29,852 nt of DNA. Origin: a virus. The stretch lies in IMG/VR virus record IMGVR_UViG_3300025133_000447, positions 1 to 29,852 of that record. One strand, 5' to 3'. Position numbers and translations under genes: made by a program. This document shows, piece after piece, positions 1,575 through 19,154 of this stretch. Each line of letters opens with the position of its first letter. Position 1 is the first letter of the stretch. The notes beneath the pieces are model-generated. The model was not told where the DNA came from. It searched no databases and worked only from the letters and a program-made list of their open reading frames with translations.

Positions 1575-3437
1575 ATGGGCGTATATAGAAGCGACCAAGC
1601 ACAATTAACATTCGCTGCTGAAGCAGCACAAGGAGGAGACCCTGAATTAATGCAGGGTGAGGCAGAAACATCTTCTGCAGGTTCAACTACTTTAAGTGCA
1701 TCCTTTAATGCTGGGTCTAGAAGTATTACAGTAGCCAGTGCAAGTAATTTTGTTGCTGGGTCTTTTATTAGAATAGGTACTGTTGAAGGTACTTATGCTG
1801 AAACTAAAACTGAACACGAAGTAAGACGAATTGAATCTATTGATGGAACAACTTTCCATTTAGACAGACCTACGGCTTTTTATCACGCAGCTTCTGATGA
1901 CGGTTCAGCCACAGAAGTGATAGAGGTAAAAGGTATTGGTAATGAGTCTACCGCTGAAGGAGACAATGGTAAATTTATAACATTTATTCCGGGTATTTAT
2001 GAAACTATAGATACACCAGACCCAGAGATGAGTATTGAAGGTAGAAGATTCCTTAGTACACAATCTAAAAGAAATTTTTCAGTAGCCTATTCAGGACAAC
2101 AAGTTCTAACAGGTTCCGTAAGTAACATTATTTTACTAAATGGTTGGGCGTTAAGATTTCCGATTGGCTCTGTAACTACTACTGCTTCAGCATATGCAAC
2201 AGACACTATATTATTAAGTGCAACAGCTAAAAAAGGTGATGTTTTTGTTGTAGTAGATGGAACTGATGCAGACAACTTAGCTGTGGGAGATTATCTCCAA
2301 ATTAGTGGTAGCTCTTCAGACCCAACAGATGGCTCATATTCAGAAATACGAAGAATTGTAACACGTACACTAGATGAAACTAAGATATCTGGTAGTGCTT
2401 CAGGCAATAATGTATTAAAATTAAATTACCCACTTCAGTTTGAACATGTAGATAATTCGGTAGTAAATGAAGTTGCTCACAGTAGTAGTATAGTTTACAC
2501 TCATGTAATAGATGAAACAACTGACTTAGACACAGTAACATGGCATGTACATATGAAAGACAGTACAGAAAACAGTAGTTACGATTTTGACAGAAGATAT
2601 GTGGGAGGTATGATTGGTTCATCTACTATATCAGCTGAAGAGGGCGGAATGCTTACAATGTCTTGGGATAGTGTGAACTTTATAAATATGGTTCACAACC
2701 AAAGAAACCAAGAGACAGTAGCAGCTAGTTCAAATGATTTGTATTATGGAGCTAGTCCAACTGCTAATATGCCTAGATTTGGCTTTATGCAAACAATTGA
2801 TACAGATGATGTAGGAATGCCAAGTCATGCTTCTACAGTTACTAATGCACATGATGGTACTGGATATCCAAACACACAACCTTATTACTTTTCTGAAGGT
2901 ACAATAAAGTTTTTTGGGCAAGAGTTTGCTAGGATACGAAGTTTTGCATTATCTATTTCTAATGGTGAGGAGCCTAGATATTATATTGGTAAACAAGGTA
3001 AAAGAGCACGAGGACCTTATGAAATAAAAGAAGGACCTAGAGAGTACTCTATGTCAGCTTCTGTAGCATTACCAGACGCTAGTGTAGCAGCTGATGCTGC
3101 TGTTGGAGCAACTGGGCAACAATCAGGGGCATTAGAGTTATTCAAACAATTATTGCTTGAGGGTGATTATGGGCATAACGATTATAAAAAAGGATTTACT
3201 GCGACCTTAAAGTTTGAACGTGATACAAATGATTACATAATAATAGATATACCGGGGTCTGCTGCAGGAGCCGCAGGAACACCAACTGCAACTTCGCATG
3301 AGTTGAATAGTCAAGGAATATTTATAAACACTGCAGGACATTCAATAACTGGAGACAATCCATTTCAAGTAGATTTGGATATGATATTCAGAAGTTTAAA
3401 GATAACAATAGTGGATAATTTACCAGTATATCCATAA
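1575..3437 (+). CDS. Major tail protein (tail tube) with added beta domains
   Basis: A 620-residue protein with a strong GGAGG ribosome binding site. It is identified as the probable tail tube subunit because it lies directly upstream of a frameshifted tail chaperone pair and a tape measure gene, the standard siphovirus order. It is long for a tube protein. Two beta-rich segments (about residues 40-105 and 213-290) share a pattern of N-[AG]-x-SITV, F-V-A-G-x-F-I-R-I, then an R-R-I turn, which resembles repeats in the 1265-residue tail protein downstream. These may be surface-exposed inserted domains on a core tube fold. No transmembrane segment or enzyme motif was seen. The alternative is a separate sheath-like or fibrous structural protein, but only one candidate for the tube exists here. 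Confidence 0.6.
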   Translation: MGVYRSDQAQLTFAAEAAQGGDPELMQGEAETSSAGSTTLSASFNAGSRSITVASASNFVAGSFIRIGTVEGTYAETKTEHEVRRIESIDGTTFHLDRPTAFYHAASDDGSATEVIEVKGIGNESTAEGDNGKFITFIPGIYETIDTPDPEMSIEGRRFLSTQSKRNFSVAYSGQQVLTGSVSNIILLNGWALRFPIGSVTTTASAYATDTILLSATAKKGDVFVVVDGTDADNLAVGDYLQISGSSSDPTDGSYSEIRRIVTRTLDETKISGSASGNNVLKLNYPLQFEHVDNSVVNEVAHSSSIVYTHVIDETTDLDTVTWHVHMKDSTENSSYDFDRRYVGGMIGSSTISAEEGGMLTMSWDSVNFINMVHNQRNQETVAASSNDLYYGASPTANMPRFGFMQTIDTDDVGMPSHASTVTNAHDGTGYPNTQPYYFSEGTIKFFGQEFARIRSFALSISNGEEPRYYIGKQGKRARGPYEIKEGPREYSMSASVALPDASVAADAAVGATGQQSGALELFKQLLLEGDYGHNDYKKGFTATLKFERDTNDYIIIDIPGSAAGAAGTPTATSHELNSQGIFINTAGHSITGDNPFQVDLDMIFRSLKITIVDNLPVYP

Positions 3438-3458: not shown

Positions 3459-3839
3459 ATGGCTGAGAATAGTAAAGTAAAAAGTTTTGATGTTTCAAAG
3501 TATAGAATTGCTACAGGAACAGAGAAACGTAAAGTTATTATAGAAGAAACGGGAGATGAGTTTGAAGTTACTGTAAAACAGTTATCTTGGGCTAAGAGAA
3601 ATCAAATGGTTTCAAGATGTTTACAGTTAGGAACAAATGGTCAAAACAGTTTTGATGGGGACCTTTATATTAGAGAGTGTTTAAAACAAATGATTGTAGA
3701 CGCTCCATGGGGGGTTACTAACGAAACTTTTTTGTCTACTATTGATAGTAGATTAGGGTCAGCTCTTGAGAAACTAGTACCAAATGCTTTTGGTGAAGAA
3801 TCCCCAGTAGCTGCTCCGAATGATATAAAAAAAGGGTAA
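3459..3839 (+). CDS. Tail assembly chaperone, short form (gpG-like)
   Basis: A 126-residue protein with an AAGGAGG ribosome binding site upstream. It lies between the major tail protein and the tape measure protein, where lambda G and its relatives sit. The protein is soluble and mixed alpha/beta, with KRKVIIEETGDEFEVTVKQL near the N terminus and a helical C-terminal half. Such proteins coat the tape measure protein during tail assembly and are absent from the finished particle. Its last codons contain a run of seven A residues followed by GGG and the stop, where a fraction of ribosomes would shift frame to make the longer form. The sequence itself gives no domain signature, so the call depends on position plus the frameshift signature. 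Confidence 0.75.
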   Translation: MAENSKVKSFDVSKYRIATGTEKRKVIIEETGDEFEVTVKQLSWAKRNQMVSRCLQLGTNGQNSFDGDLYIRECLKQMIVDAPWGVTNETFLSTIDSRLGSALEKLVPNAFGEESPVAAPNDIKKG

Positions 3840-4063
3840 AGGCTTTCTGGGCAGGGACGGGTGATATAACACAAAAAGAGTCCCTCCTGTATAATTACTG
3901 GACAGTAATGCTCCAATTATTGAAACTAGGATTAGACTGGGAAGCCATAATGCAAATGACGGAGGCAGAAATTAATATAGTTTTAGGAGTTGAAATGGCA
4001 ATAAGAGATAAACAAAATGAGGCTGAAGCTAGGTCTATGGCAGGCTCAGGGGGGTCTTTCTAA
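3459..4063 (+). CDS. Tail assembly chaperone, frameshifted long form (gpGT-like)
   Basis: The product of a -1 ribosomal frameshift. The short form is read to Lys125, the ribosome slips back one base at A-AAA-AAA (3827-3833), and translation continues in the -1 frame from 3833 to the TAA at 4061-4063, giving about 201 residues (125 + 76). The extension reads RVKAFWAGTGDITQ and later LGLDWEAIMQMTEAEINIVL, a helical, conserved-looking segment with no suitable start codon near its beginning. The -1 frame is closed upstream by a TGA at 3821-3823, so the shift must fall in the short window containing the slippery run. This matches the lambda G/GT arrangement, in which the T extension binds the tail tube protein while G binds the tape measure. 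Confidence 0.82.
3827..3833 (+). promoter_or_regulatory. Programmed -1 frameshift slippery site
   Basis: The bases read A-AAA-AAA in the frame of the short chaperone, a canonical X-XXY-YYZ slippery heptamer, followed by GGG and the zero-frame stop TAA at 3837-3839. A possible downstream stimulatory stem pairs AGGGAC (3853-3858) with GTCCCT (3880-3885) across a 21-base loop. It begins about 19 bases after the slip site, farther than usual, so its role is uncertain. Confidence 0.8.
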
Positions 4064-4064
4064 C

Positions 4065-5264
4065 ATGTTATTTACGGCAGGGGCTATTAGAATGGCAGTT
4101 GATGTATTATCTGGAGGTGTGGGTGCTGCTGCAGGTGCTTCAATGGGTTCCGGGGGTTCAAGCGAATCACCACCAGACCAATCTAGAGGATTTATTAAGT
4201 CTTCTTTAGACGCAGGTAAAAAAATAAAAGACATGGCTGGGTATGGGAAACAACTAGTTAATAAACGACTAGGTGTTTTAGGAATTAATTTATCTTTAGG
4301 TGCTATATTAAAACAATCACAGATATTTACAGGTGTAATGGGGTCCCTATTCCAAATTTTAGGGGCTTTTGTGGACATAGCGTTAGCACCGTTAATGCCT
4401 CTTTTTGCACGTGGGTTACAAGCATTAGCTGGTAAGCTACCAGATATGTTTGAATTAGTAGCAAAAGTAGAAAATTATATAAAAAGCATTTGGGCTGAAG
4501 CTAATGGAGACTGGGCAGGTTTTATAGGTATGCTTGTTAGCAGAAGTCTATCTATAGCTACTCGCAAAACTCTGGAAAACTTATGGGATAACTCCATGGG
4601 AAGCTCCAACTTCTGGGTAAAAGTTCTGAAAAATGCAACACCAGCAAATGTGTTACAAAATATACTAAAATCTGAAACCGTAAAGAATTTGTGGAAGGGT
4701 TTTGCAGACGGAATAGACGAGGACTTTAAAAGATGGTTAGACCAAAACTTTTTAATTACCCCAATAATGGGAGTTATTGATGCGATTAAAAACAGCTTTT
4801 CAGGACTCATTATATCAATTAAAGAAAAGTTTGGAATAGATACACGTTCGGACGTACAAAAACAAATAGTTGCCCGTCCACGATTTAGTATCGGTAGTCA
4901 AGAAATGGAAGAATTTGGTTCTCCATATGGACCAAACAGTGGTTTTAACAGAGGTGTAGTCACAACCCCAGCTCTTAACATGTTTGACGACAGTAAAAGC
5001 TTTTGGGAAAGTCTTAAAGATGCAGCAGTTGCTGCCACAGATTCTTCATTGCTTAAATCCATCCCTATTCTAGGACAGATGGCATCGGCTCCAACAGTAG
5101 CTAAATTTGTTGTAGAAAGTGGTACTGAGGTTTATGAAACTGTTTTTGATTATGGGAGCAGAACAAAAAACCAAGACACTATAGATTTTTTTATAAATCC
5201 GGGTGGGTTTAGGAGTTACTTTGACGATGTAGTAGGTCAAATGAAAGGATTTATGGGGCATTAA
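4065..5264 (+). CDS. Putative short tail tape measure protein
   Basis: About 399 residues from ATG 4065. I chose this start because it follows the chaperone extension stop by one base and has a purine-rich AGGGGGG ribosome binding site about nine bases upstream; the frame stays open to an ATG at 4017, which would overlap the chaperone. The protein is rich in Gly/Ala/Ser near the N terminus (GAAAGASMGSGG) and has a long hydrophobic helical stretch (SLFQILGAFVDIALAPLMPL), a typical tape measure feature thought to help DNA entry through the membrane. Its position after the G/GT pair is diagnostic. At 0.15 nm per residue, the usual tape measure scale, it predicts a tail near 60 nm, short for a siphovirus. 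Confidence 0.68.
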   Translation: MLFTAGAIRMAVDVLSGGVGAAAGASMGSGGSSESPPDQSRGFIKSSLDAGKKIKDMAGYGKQLVNKRLGVLGINLSLGAILKQSQIFTGVMGSLFQILGAFVDIALAPLMPLFARGLQALAGKLPDMFELVAKVENYIKSIWAEANGDWAGFIGMLVSRSLSIATRKTLENLWDNSMGSSNFWVKVLKNATPANVLQNILKSETVKNLWKGFADGIDEDFKRWLDQNFLITPIMGVIDAIKNSFSGLIISIKEKFGIDTRSDVQKQIVARPRFSIGSQEMEEFGSPYGPNSGFNRGVVTTPALNMFDDSKSFWESLKDAAVAATDSSLLKSIPILGQMASAPTVAKFVVESGTEVYETVFDYGSRTKNQDTIDFFINPGGFRSYFDDVVGQMKGFMGH

Positions 5265-5798: not shown

Positions 5799-8700
5799 AT
5801 GGCTATAAATTCAACAGTAGCATATTGGAATGGTAGTAAATGGGTGGAACTAACGACCGTCCGTAGTGCTAAATTTGCGGCAACTTTAAATGAAGCTTTA
5901 GACACAAGTGAGACTGCTATAGATGTGTCATCAGTAGCTGAAATGAGGACAGGTCAAAATATCAAGATTGATAATGAGCCCATGACAATTTCAGCTATTA
6001 GTACTAGTGCAAATACTATTACTGTTACACGAGGAACAGCTACCACACTAGGAGCTGTTATTGATGAAACCTTAGATGCCAGTGAAGAGTCAATAGATGT
6101 CACAGATACTACTGAAATGTTTGTAAATCAAGTTTTACAAGTAGATAATGAATACTTAACGGTTACAGCAGTAAATAGTATAACTAACATTACTGTAACT
6201 AGAGGTGGAGGTTCTGGAGCAGCCACTCACAGTAATCAAGCTACTATTCTTGATAGAACTACAGTAGCGGCAACTCATTCAAGTGGAGCATCTATTTTTT
6301 ATGGAAGTTCAGACCTAATTGATATGCGTCTTAAACATACATTAAATAGGACACAAACAGCTAGAGTCACACTTAGAAATGGGTCGAAAAACCCTTTAGG
6401 AATTAATGCTACTCAAGCGGCGGGTTTATATAACAATACTTTAGGCGATTTTACACCAATTAAAATCTTCGATACTAATTCAGGACAACTATATTTTTAT
6501 GGTTTAACTTTATCTTATAATGAAGTGCACAACCCTTTGTATGGAATGGTAGCTGAAATAGAAGCCGAAGATTTTTTAACCGAAATTAAAGCCATACCTA
6601 CAAAAGGAATAACAGCTTTTGAGGTTGATACAAGTGGGAATTTATATGACGCTATAGCAACAACAAATGGTAAGATATCATCAACAGTAGGAAGAGTAAA
6701 GGGTGGTTGGTTCGGAGCAGGTCCTAATGTATGGGATGATGAAGTAGCTGCTCGTGGGGGTCTTATAAAATCTCTTTTGACCGAACACTCTATTAATAAT
6801 TTAACACATCCCGGAAATGCAAATTCGGGGGATTCTAGATTTACTGAATCTATAGCTAAATTTAGAGAAGATGAAATACTAAATGTTAGTAAATCTAAAA
6901 AATCTGTATTAGGTTTAATTGAAGATATAGCTAAAACAGACCCCCACAATGCTGTAACAAACGCTTCAGAATTTGGGTTTGACTTTTATGTAGACCCTAA
7001 TTTTACATCAACTGTATCGACAACAGCCAGACCAACTTCATATTTTAATTACTTTAAAAGAGGATATCGTCCAAATTCTAATCCGGGTGCCTATGGATTA
7101 AGTTTAGTTATGCCTAACCGACACTCAATTGGTTCAAATGGAAGATTTAGGACAACAGGACAACAAAAAGCTGTTAGTGGGACTTTAGGGTTTAGAAGAC
7201 CTAAGAGTGAAAATTATACAGCAGCCGCTGTAAGTTATTCTAAAGTTTCAACTGCTGACAAAGGAGCAGGGACAGTCACAGGGGATGAAAGAATTTTTGA
7301 GATGTTAGTAGTAGATACATTTGCTTTAAATCATGCTAACAACTTTAGATGGCGTGGTTCAGATGGATATAGAATTAGTGGTGGAGTGCAAGGCACAGAC
7401 AGCTCAGAAAACTTATCTTACTATATAGGTACGATAACAGCTGATGTTGGTACTAGTGCTACCACTATAACCGTAGCTGATAATACTAGTATGTATGTTG
7501 GGGCTTATTTATGTTGGTCACCAATTACAACGGGTTCAGCAGAGCAAATGGAAGTCACAGCTGTAAATAGTAATGGGACTGATATTACTGTGCAGAGAGC
7601 TAAAAATGGGACTTTAGCAGATGACGCTAAAACAACTGGGGATAATATTTACTTAATGGATGCCGCAAAACTACAGTTTATAAGTTATGCGGATTCCGCC
7701 GCCTTATCAGGTTCTGAAACTGCGTATGTTTTAGTATCAGATATACCATCCCATATAATGAATAACACTACTGTTTGGGGAGAAAATGCTGTTTTAATAG
7801 GTGAGGCAACAGGATATACTTTTCAAATAAAATCTAGACCCCACTTAGATTATGGTGTTAGAAGAGTTTTAAATTTTTCTGTAGGTTCTGAAACTAAAGA
7901 TGATACGATTAGAGAACGTGTTGTGGCAGCACTATTGAACAGGTCTGTTAATACAGCCACTAGAGGTAGTGCAACAGTATATAATGAGCCAACAACCTAC
8001 TTTGATAATGTACCATCAGCAGTTTCAACCCCAAGTGGGTTTAGTCAAACTATAACTTTTGGTAATACAGAATTATCAGGGGAAATCGAATATAACTTAA
8101 ATGCTTCTGATACAGATATTATAGTATCTGATACAACTGGAATGTATGTAGGGCAACAATTATTAGTTGATTCTGAAAAAATGACTATAAGTTCTATAAA
8201 AAATCTTACTCAGCTAACTGTTAGTAGAGGGGCTGCAAGTACGTCAGCTGATACACATGATGGAAGTAGTACAGCTAAAAAGATTTATGATAGTAATGTT
8301 AACCCCGTTAATTATGGATTTACTATCGGAATGACTGTAAATGAATTAGATGCTAGTAGCAACCCTACAGCTACCTTTGGTTATGTTTCAGCGGTCTCAT
8401 CTACCCAAGTTACAGTTGTTTGGAATGTTGGTAGTGCTAGCACATCATCAACATTACGTTATTATGTACCAACTAGAGCTGGGGACATTTGTAAAGTTAA
8501 GGATAATTCAGTTGGTATGGATTCTAATTTCATCATAACTGGGGTTACTTACACAGAAGGTCCGGGAATGTCAATGACTGATTACGAATTAGTAAAAGCA
8601 GACAGTCTTCAAGAAGGGGGTTCTGCAGAAATAGGGTTTATTCCACAAATAGCAGATAAACTTGAAGATGAAGAGGAAGCTGAATTTAAAGAAGCAATGT

Positions 8701-9596
8701 CTAAACAAGGTCCGATAGCAACGGATTTAGAATTTACATCCGCAAGTGCTACACAAGTAAATTGGTCTAAAAATGGTGATGGTAGTACTGCAGGTAAACT
8801 ATACTTTGCAGATGAAACTTATTCGGTTAACGCTGGGGATACGTCAGCTCTTGAAACTTTAAGTACGTCTTACAATTATATAATATACTACAAAAAAGGT
8901 GATACAACACTAACTACTATTAGAGAATCTAATTTTGCAGCTGTAATAGCGTCTGATTATGATGATGAAATTAAAATTATAGGTTATTGTAATGCAGTTA
9001 GCAGTGGTAGAGCTGTGTTTGATGTTCATTCTTCAGTTAAGGATTCTAATGGTGTAGGAAGCCCTTTGAAAACGTCCGGAACAAAAATTTTATCTGAAGC
9101 AGGTGGGTTAAATGTTGATTCTAATGCTCAATTTACAGGCACTAAAACAATGGTCGGATTTACAGGTACAAATGGGCACTTGTCAGTAACCAATTTAGGA
9201 AGCATCCACCACAAATCTATGGAACTAACGGCGGGTGGAACTGTTAAGTTTACGGGCTCAAGCTTATCTGGTACTGATGTTATAGTGACATCAGGTAACG
9301 TCTTGGCACTAAAATCTAGTTCGGCAAAATATAAAGAAAACATTAAAGATTTAGAATATGATAGAGAAAAATTAGATGGCTTAAGCCCTAAAATTTATAA
9401 CTATAAAAAACAAGAAGATGACCAAAAAGATATTGGATTGATTGCAGAAGATGTGAACGAAATTTTACCTGAACTTATAAATTATAATTCAGAAGGTAAT
9501 CCAGAATCAGTGAAATATCATGGATTATCTGTTATGCTATTAAAAGAAGTACAAAAATTACGTCAAGAAATAAAAGAACTCAAGGAGGATAGCTAA
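5799..9596 (+). CDS. Large tail/baseplate protein with C-terminal S74 chaperone domain
   Basis: A 1265-residue protein. The C terminus (about residues 1175-1262) is a peptidase S74 / endosialidase-type intramolecular chaperone: SSAKYKENIKDL, then LSPKIYNYKK, IGLIAEDVNEILPEL, YHGLSVMLLKEVQKL and a terminal coiled coil. In this family the domain helps the protein trimerise and then cleaves itself off, with a Ser-Lys pair; S1175/K1177 lie in the usual place. Upstream are at least four repeats of about 50 residues (30-79, 88-136, 547-600, 767-811) with the pattern LNA-(S/T)-x-T-x-I-x-V-x-(D/S)-T-T-x-M-x-V-G, ending in TVTRG-like strands. The middle part (about 170-500) probably forms the baseplate hub or a receptor-binding trunk. 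The most likely role is host recognition at the tail tip. It combines hub-like and fibre-like parts in one chain. Confidence 0.85.
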   Translation: MAINSTVAYWNGSKWVELTTVRSAKFAATLNEALDTSETAIDVSSVAEMRTGQNIKIDNEPMTISAISTSANTITVTRGTATTLGAVIDETLDASEESIDVTDTTEMFVNQVLQVDNEYLTVTAVNSITNITVTRGGGSGAATHSNQATILDRTTVAATHSSGASIFYGSSDLIDMRLKHTLNRTQTARVTLRNGSKNPLGINATQAAGLYNNTLGDFTPIKIFDTNSGQLYFYGLTLSYNEVHNPLYGMVAEIEAEDFLTEIKAIPTKGITAFEVDTSGNLYDAIATTNGKISSTVGRVKGGWFGAGPNVWDDEVAARGGLIKSLLTEHSINNLTHPGNANSGDSRFTESIAKFREDEILNVSKSKKSVLGLIEDIAKTDPHNAVTNASEFGFDFYVDPNFTSTVSTTARPTSYFNYFKRGYRPNSNPGAYGLSLVMPNRHSIGSNGRFRTTGQQKAVSGTLGFRRPKSENYTAAAVSYSKVSTADKGAGTVTGDERIFEMLVVDTFALNHANNFRWRGSDGYRISGGVQGTDSSENLSYYIGTITADVGTSATTITVADNTSMYVGAYLCWSPITTGSAEQMEVTAVNSNGTDITVQRAKNGTLADDAKTTGDNIYLMDAAKLQFISYADSAALSGSETAYVLVSDIPSHIMNNTTVWGENAVLIGEATGYTFQIKSRPHLDYGVRRVLNFSVGSETKDDTIRERVVAALLNRSVNTATRGSATVYNEPTTYFDNVPSAVSTPSGFSQTITFGNTELSGEIEYNLNASDTDIIVSDTTGMYVGQQLLVDSEKMTISSIKNLTQLTVSRGAASTSADTHDGSSTAKKIYDSNVNPVNYGFTIGMTVNELDASSNPTATFGYVSAVSSTQVTVVWNVGSASTSSTLRYYVPTRAGDICKVKDNSVGMDSNFIITGVTYTEGPGMSMTDYELVKADSLQEGGSAEIGFIPQIADKLEDEEEAEFKEAMSKQGPIATDLEFTSASATQVNWSKNGDGSTAGKLYFADETYSVNAGDTSALETLSTSYNYIIYYKKGDTTLTTIRESNFAAVIASDYDDEIKIIGYCNAVSSGRAVFDVHSSVKDSNGVGSPLKTSGTKILSEAGGLNVDSNAQFTGTKTMVGFTGTNGHLSVTNLGSIHHKSMELTAGGTVKFTGSSLSGTDVIVTSGNVLALKSSSAKYKENIKDLEYDREKLDGLSPKIYNYKKQEDDQKDIGLIAEDVNEILPELINYNSEGNPESVKYHGLSVMLLKEVQKLRQEIKELKEDS

Positions 9597-10173: not shown

Positions 10174-10698
10174 ATGGAAATTAATAATGAACTGGTAGCC
10201 CAATGGGAACCCAAAATCCAAAAAATGTCTTCAAATTCTTATGTAGTGGGGCTAGATAAAGAAGACTTAGCTCAAGAGCTTAGAATAGCATTAGTAAAAG
10301 CTGCACGTGCCTATGATGATTCTAAAGGGGCAATCTTTCATACATATCTACACACATCTTTAGTGAATACCATAAGAACTTTGATTACTAAAGCACAACG
10401 AAAACCTATTGCTAGAAGCATAGATGTGACTTTTGATGGTAATAATACTATTCCTAAAGAAATCGCAGCGGCAATGGTTGAACCAAAAAACTACACTGAA
10501 GAAGTTGAAGCCAATATATGGATACATGCTCAGGGACTATTAGATAAAGAAAAACTATTCTTAGAATTAAAACTAGAAGGTTTGACAATGGAAGAAATTA
10601 CAGAAGATTTAGGGGAGTCTGCCTATAAAGTCAGACAATCTTTACGAGATAAATTACATGAATTGAAGGATGCAAATGCCAAGAAGGACCAGACGTAG
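10174..10698 (+). CDS. Phage RNA polymerase sigma factor-like protein
   Basis: A 174-residue protein. Residues about 20-76 resemble sigma-70 region 2: LDKEDLAQELRIALVKAARA, where DLAQE is the typical region 2.2 core-binding motif, followed by AYDDSKGAIFHTYLHTSLVNTIR, matching the region 2.3/2.4 helix. Residues about 125-166 resemble region 4, a helix-turn-helix (EKLFLELKLEGLTMEEIT then GESAYKVRQSLRDKL). Such proteins redirect host RNA polymerase to phage promoters, as T4 gp55 does for late genes. No clear ribosome binding site is seen before the ATG. Its targets may be the matching TATAAT elements at 1527 and 25013. The family is judged by motif layout; a DNA-binding HTH protein of other origin is the main alternative. 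Confidence 0.75.
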   Translation: MEINNELVAQWEPKIQKMSSNSYVVGLDKEDLAQELRIALVKAARAYDDSKGAIFHTYLHTSLVNTIRTLITKAQRKPIARSIDVTFDGNNTIPKEIAAAMVEPKNYTEEVEANIWIHAQGLLDKEKLFLELKLEGLTMEEITEDLGESAYKVRQSLRDKLHELKDANAKKDQT

Positions 10699-18200: not shown

Positions 18201-18498
18201 AGACTATACCCAACAAGAAGAAATTATAGCTCAATGGTTATCTAAGTTTGGATTAAGTTACGAACCCCAAGCTTATTATCATCCGTATGTAGTAGATTTT
18301 TACATACCTGAAATAAAAACGGTTGTGGAAGCGGATGGAGTATATGGTCATTTAGGTAAGAGGGATAGGAAAAGGGACTCAGACCTTTTATCCTTGGAAG
18401 ATATAGATTATATTATTCATATAAAAGAAAAAACAAACGAAAAAATAAAAGACCAACTTTGGTTGGAACTAAATAATTTAGATAAAGGTTTAGAATGA
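18184..18498 (+). CDS. DUF559/Vsr-like endonuclease
   Basis: A 104-residue protein of the PD-(D/E)xK superfamily. The core reads YVVDFYIP with D38, then VVEADGVYGH with E49, D51 and H56, then RDRKRDSDLL with an Arg-Asp pair, then DYIIHI. This is the DUF559 layout, related to very short patch repair endonucleases. It overlaps the recombinase gene by 17 bases and is followed by the Cas4-like nuclease, so it probably acts in repair or in resolving recombination intermediates. The substrate cannot be told from sequence. Confidence 0.75.
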   Translation: MNLPPRDYTQQEEIIAQWLSKFGLSYEPQAYYHPYVVDFYIPEIKTVVEADGVYGHLGKRDRKRDSDLLSLEDIDYIIHIKEKTNEKIKDQLWLELNNLDKGLE

Positions 18499-19154
18499 TA
18501 CAGAAAAGGAAAGCTAATCCAGCCCATAGACAAGATATGTGGCTAAAAGATTTGATAGATGAGCACTTAGAGGGGACAATGACTTCTAGGGGTGTACAGG
18601 TGTTTTACCCATCTGTTATAAGTAACTCATGCGATAGATATGTATGGTTATGTTACAATGGACGTATGGTAGACAGACCCTTACCAGCAGTTTTGGAGAG
18701 AATTTTCCAGAACGGTAGTTTTTTAGAAGAACGAGTTGGGAAGTGGTTTTCTGAAATGGGTATACTGATTGACAGAGAGGTTTCTGTAAAGTATGAAATC
18801 CCGGCGATTTCTGGCAGGATAGACTTTCTGATTAGGCATGCTAATTATGGGGTAATACCTATTGAGTTGAAGTCTATTAATACATCAAAGTTTGATGCAT
18901 TACGAAAACCATTGCCAGAACACAACATTCAAATTCAAATGTATCTTAATATGGGGAACTATGAAAAGGGAACGGTGTTATATGAGAATAAAAATAACCA
19001 AAAAATAAAAGCTTTTTTAGTAGATAAAGACCCAGAACATTGGGCTGATATATTAGAGAGGTGTTTTAAGATTAAAGACATGTTAGCAATGCCTGAAAAA
19101 TGTACGGGACCTAGGTATTGTGACTGTCGATTAGTAGAAGAAGGATTGTTATAA
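18495..19154 (+). CDS. Cas4/RecB-like nuclease with four-cysteine Fe-S set
   Basis: A 219-residue nuclease. The RecB-type active site is D110 (SGRIDFLI), E124-L-K126 (IPIELKS) and Q146-x3-Y150 (QIQMY). Four cysteines lie as in Cas4 and AddB: one before the nuclease core (C46, in SNSCDRY; C53 is nearby) and three at the C terminus (C203, C209, C211), so a 4Fe-4S cluster is likely. Phage Cas4-like enzymes process DNA ends, and here it would supply single strands for the RecA-like protein. No CRISPR array or cas gene is nearby, so a phage recombination role is preferred. It overlaps the previous gene by four bases. Confidence 0.85.
   Translation: MIQKRKANPAHRQDMWLKDLIDEHLEGTMTSRGVQVFYPSVISNSCDRYVWLCYNGRMVDRPLPAVLERIFQNGSFLEERVGKWFSEMGILIDREVSVKYEIPAISGRIDFLIRHANYGVIPIELKSINTSKFDALRKPLPEHNIQIQMYLNMGNYEKGTVLYENKNNQKIKAFLVDKDPEHWADILERCFKIKDMLAMPEKCTGPRYCDCRLVEEGLL

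Follow-up and report, generated by a model that had tools for sequence, protein, structure and literature searches.

A probable programmed −1 ribosomal frameshift in the tail assembly chaperone gene of a group of uncultivated tailed viruses

The 29,852-nucleotide stretch of DNA analyzed here (IMG/VR record IMGVR_UViG_3300025133_000447; hereafter, the window) comes from an uncultivated tailed virus, and its tail assembly chaperone gene is followed by an open frame that starts within the gene's own 3′ end, shifted by one base. This raises the question of whether the second frame is reached by ribosomes slipping at a run of adenines, as in the G/GT module of phage lambda, or is to be explained in another way. 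The features of the locus, with the evidence for each, are as follows.

1575 to 3437, plus strand: tail tube protein gene, the upstream neighbor (PF18906 Phage_tube_2, 31.6 bits against a cutoff of 27).
3459 to 3839, plus strand: short tail assembly chaperone (G-like), 126 amino acids (ORF; PHROG 25860; AlphaFold model compared with YqbN and HK97 gp13).
3827 to 3833, plus strand: A_AAA_AAA, candidate slippery heptamer for a −1 shift, in register with the chaperone ORF (sequence; canonical heptamer in all 44 distinct sequences).
3837 to 3839, plus strand: TAA that terminates the short form in the zero frame (sequence; one codon past the heptamer in 29 of the 44).
3833 to 4063, plus strand: T-like domain extending the chaperone in the −1 frame, 76 codons followed by TAA (sequence; kept in relatives; AlphaFold; dN/dS).
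4065 to 5264, plus strand: tape measure protein gene, the downstream neighbor (by the gene order of relative L012 and of Haloarcula hispanica tailed virus 2 [HHTV-2]).

The chaperone ORF ends in GAT ATA AAA AAA GGG TAA (3822 to 3839), with a codon register of ATA at 3825 to 3827, AAA at 3828 to 3830, AAA at 3831 to 3833, GGG at 3834 to 3836, and TAA at 3837 to 3839. The −1 frame is shut by a TGA at 3821 to 3823 and is open from 3824 to a TAA at 4061 to 4063. The first codon following a slip is AGG (3833 to 3835), and the codons from 3833 to 4060 encode 76 residues (RVKAFWAGTGDITQKESLLYNYWTVMLQLLKLGLDWEAIMQMTEAEINIVLGVEMAIRDKQNEAEARSMAGSGGSF), giving a long form of chaperone residues 1 to 125 plus 76, or 201 amino acids. 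The original prediction had described this gene ending, the in-frame heptamer, and a −1 frame open only between the upstream TGA and position 4063, and on direct reading all of its coordinates were right. As in-frame A7 occurs at eight other sites in the window, the heptamer alone is unconvincing and, by itself, constitutes weak evidence. Within the window, the copy at 3827 to 3833 is the only A7 heptamer lying no more than 20 codons from the stop of an ORF, and the probability of a stop-free frame of 76 codons arising by chance was approximately 0.002 (mononucleotide shuffle of the region).

The locus is flanked by the tail tube gene on one side and the tape measure gene on the other, the position of G/GT and the expected place named in the original prediction, with the PF18906 gene upstream and the tape measure ATG one base after the stop of the extension. 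The ORF at 4065 to 5264 had no family match of its own; the ORF at the equivalent place in L012 matched PHROG 4200 tape measure proteins (E value, 9e-17), and by comparison with L012 and HHTV-2 the window ORF is identified as the tape measure gene. The tail tube gene encodes a long product (620 amino acids); a subthreshold match to the Rider domain PF24149 toward the beginning of the gene may mark an inserted domain. Elsewhere in the window, a 1,265-residue tail fiber protein (5799 to 9596; PHROG 5668), the end of which is presumably an S74-type intramolecular chaperone, and a Cas4-like exonuclease (18495 to 19154; PHROG 1706/1990) were identified. A sigma-factor-like protein (10174 to 10698; PHROG 351; E value, 2.5e-12) suggests a bacterial host.

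To identify relatives, the chaperone and the extension were each used as a query against IMG/VR, returning 51 and 27 loci, respectively. Removal of duplicates and of one broken locus left a working set of 44 distinct sequences, including the window, of which 34 with mutual nucleotide identity below 80% formed the lineage set; these are related lineages and not independent samples. The broken locus (L059, 197 to 700) passes from the chaperone N terminus into unrelated Lys/Gly-rich low-complexity sequence after approximately 55 residues and is probably a chimeric contig. An initial scan of bacterial and archaeal genome contigs returned no relatives, and a second scan with a wider alignment recovered two distant contigs from metagenome-assembled genomes (MAGs), L088 (labeled Maricaulis) and L089 (labeled Daviesbacteria). 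Both share the heptamer and −1 ORF layout; the extension of L089 is very divergent, with only its KKR start obviously common. A terminase search among isolated phages identified no relative of this virus group.

The short form was compared with known chaperones at the level of both sequence and predicted structure. The window protein matched the PHROG 25860 tail assembly chaperone (E value, 8.3e-5), as did 34 of the 44 members of the set, while 12 of the 44 matched PHROG 389 and 19 gave weak matches to PF08890 (Phage_TAC_5; best E value, 0.0026). The window protein itself gave no PF08890 (XkdN-like) match at all, and hence none above the curated cutoff. Its AlphaFold model (pLDDT, 79) matched YqbN (PDB 3klu; Z score, 6.5) and HK97 gp13 (2ob9; Z score, 4.6), both of which ranked high among a small number of fold matches, with identities of 7 to 12% in the structural alignments. 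The best fold match was thus to YqbN, of the XkdN/YqbN family (PF08890, PHROG 389). The short form resembles known tail assembly chaperones; middling Z scores are not proof alone but agree with the sequence matches and with the position of the gene. The extension was confidently modeled as four helices, with a mean pLDDT of 93.4. No family match was obtained for it in the libraries searched, nor any significant match in fold searches of the PDB and BFVD, and for this reason the designation "T-like" rests on position.

A canonical in-frame heptamer was found in all 44 sequences: A_AAA_AAA in 41, T_TTA_AAA in two (L052 and L060), and A_AAA_AAC in one (L053). The zero-frame stop lies 1 to 5 codons past the heptamer, and a homologous −1 ORF reaches 66 to 83 codons beyond that stop in every sequence, the +1 frame being shut within 4 to 41 codons. 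Three lineages recovered through the extension alone (L067, L070, and L080) each have the chaperone and heptamer upstream. As judged from these comparisons, conservation in 44 of 44 distinct sequences, the window included, is the decisive evidence that the arrangement is not due to chance.

Across the 34 lineages, stops in the region of the extension were absent from the −1 frame in every case, while the two remaining frames averaged 9 and 6 stops. Most moderately diverged pairs had extension dN/dS values of 0.02 to 0.36, with values of 0.02 to 0.1 in, for example, L015/L019, L014/L043, and L041/L042, from which it is concluded that purifying selection is acting on the extension. The checks put forward with the original prediction, namely, that relatives should keep the A run and the −1 frame and that change in the extension should be biased toward synonymous sites, were thus borne out: heptamer and frame are retained in all intact relatives, and most of the moderately diverged pairs have dN/dS values far under 1. 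At the slip site, the codon carrying the first A varies (ATA, GTA, TTA, ACA, or GCA), with A as its third base in every A-heptamer case. AAG is never used for the slip-site Lys codons; elsewhere in the same ORFs it makes up 28% of Lys codons. Naive multiplication of the codon frequencies gave approximately 3e-21 for the slip-site pattern, a figure that is overstated since the lineages are related. Because T_TTA_AAA and A_AAA_AAC replace A_AAA_AAA in some lineages, slipperiness has been kept despite a change in residues, and this turnover with retention of frame is good evidence that slipperiness, and not the encoded residues, is what has been selected.

From these comparative data, it is very probable that the tail chaperone is made in two versions by programmed −1 ribosomal frameshifting, forming a module of the lambda G/GT type. 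The majority of ribosomes would read the chaperone to the TAA at 3837, producing the 126-residue short form. In a minority, the Lys-tRNAs on the AAA codons at 3828 to 3830 and 3831 to 3833 would slip back together by one base onto 3827 to 3832, and reading would continue with AGG GTA AAG to give the 201-residue long form bearing the 76-residue helical T-like domain. If the roles are as in lambda, binding of the tape measure protein would fall to the chaperone part, and the T-like part would bring in the tail tube protein. Slippage at a useful rate is likewise presumed. Low-level −1 G-T frameshifting is broadly conserved among long-tailed phages (PMC5009743), with shifting of 6 to 7% in two phage tail chaperone genes and approximately 10% at a natural A_AAA_AAA cassette of another gene (PMC3711429); in Escherichia coli, A_AAA_AAA is less shift-prone than A_AAA_AAG (PMC5009743).

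Possible stimulators were sought around the heptamer. No common structure was identified by RNAalifold in the 68 nucleotides from the heptamer onward across 24 sequences, and Rfam gave no matches in the window. Folding of single sequences gave a mean z of approximately −1.2 for windows starting 7 to 11 nucleotides from the heptamer's first base, which was the lowest of the positions scanned and is modest. Purine-rich, Shine-Dalgarno-like stretches are present approximately 16 to 22 and 28 to 32 nucleotides upstream of the heptamer in about one-third of relatives, a count made without a control. A downstream structure or an upstream Shine-Dalgarno-like stimulator is usual but not obligatory in −1 frameshifting at X_XXY_YYZ sites.

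Were the extension instead a separate gene and the heptamer incidental, translation would have to begin at a start of its own or resume by reinitiation once ribosomes reach the stop of the chaperone. A start codon overlapping that stop (e.g., TAATG, a classic coupling signal) does occur in 17 of the 44 sequences, representing 13 of the 34 lineages. These overlaps, of the TAATG and TGATG type, were found in L012, L013, L018, L023, L025, L028, L029, L031, L035, L036, L038, L039, L041, L042, L044, L045, and L056, and the window is not among them. However, in 25 of the 44, the window among them, the first nine −1 codons from the slip site contain no ATG, GTG, or TTG, and the first such codon in the window is the ATG at 3908, 25 codons in and well past KKRxxAF, the conserved start of the domain, in keeping with the earlier claim that the extension has no credible start. 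With the heptamer conserved in every sequence and the start codon present in only a minority, reinitiation cannot be the general route, and expression of the extension as a separate gene is considered very unlikely. In the lineages with a stop-start overlap, reinitiation might add a free T domain alongside frameshifting, although it is rather doubtful that the 13 lineages obtain the T-like domain by both routes, as a fusion from frameshifting and as a free protein from reinitiation. If they do, this virus group could show a transition between two modes of expression.

The remaining alternatives attribute the second frame to the A run itself. RNA polymerase slippage adding one A would yield mixed mRNAs that are read by unshifted ribosomes; a run of seven A's is present, and slippage on A runs is known, the sites for it being runs longer than 7 (PMC3711429). 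The runs observed here are of seven in 40 of the 44 sequences, eight in one, six in one (L053), and only four in the two T_TTA_AAA lineages. Conserved throughout is the heptamer's register relative to the codons, a requirement for slippage by the ribosome but not by the polymerase. Both this register and the two lineages with four A's disfavor RNA polymerase and favor the ribosome, leaving the former with a very low probability. Homopolymers are also prone to indel errors in sequencing, and the chaperone could formerly have been one continuous ORF, split by such an error or by decay of the gene. The same two-frame layout is, however, shared by all 44 distinct sequences, which come from many separate metagenomes and include those with the two other heptamers, making the chance of this negligible. 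Programmed −1 frameshifting is therefore the reading retained, and the lambda G/GT-type interpretation originally proposed draws its support from the conserved heptamer and −1 frame, the synonymous-biased change, and the lack of a conserved start.

Compared with known systems, the locus is like lambda G/GT in its position between tube and tape measure genes, in its short form and −1-extended long form, and in having a canonical heptamer a short way ahead of the zero-frame stop (PMC5009743). It differs in its heptamer and in that no sequence relation to the lambda proteins was detected; in the libraries searched, no known T domain showed similarity to the extension. The heptamer of lambda is G_GGA_AAG, while that found here is A_AAA_AAA. 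A sequence relative of the chaperone is gp47 of HHTV-2 (31.5% identity; E value, 3e-4). As in the window, the HHTV-2 chaperone gene is followed by a −1 frame, that of gp48, and then by the tape measure gene; unlike the window, the end of gp47 (GAG GAA AAC TGA) has no canonical heptamer. The open frame of gp48 overlaps the end of gp47 (L008, 4282 to 4309). gp48 was considered as a homologue of the extension and rejected, as no relation between them was detectable.

The phenomenon is almost certainly the textbook one, the known G/GT −1 frameshift (PMC5009743), found here in an otherwise undescribed virus group. It adds a clean, deeply conserved case of G/GT frameshifting in uncultivated tailed viruses for which isolated phages offered no terminase match, and it brings to light a conserved T-like domain that standard gene prediction would overlook.
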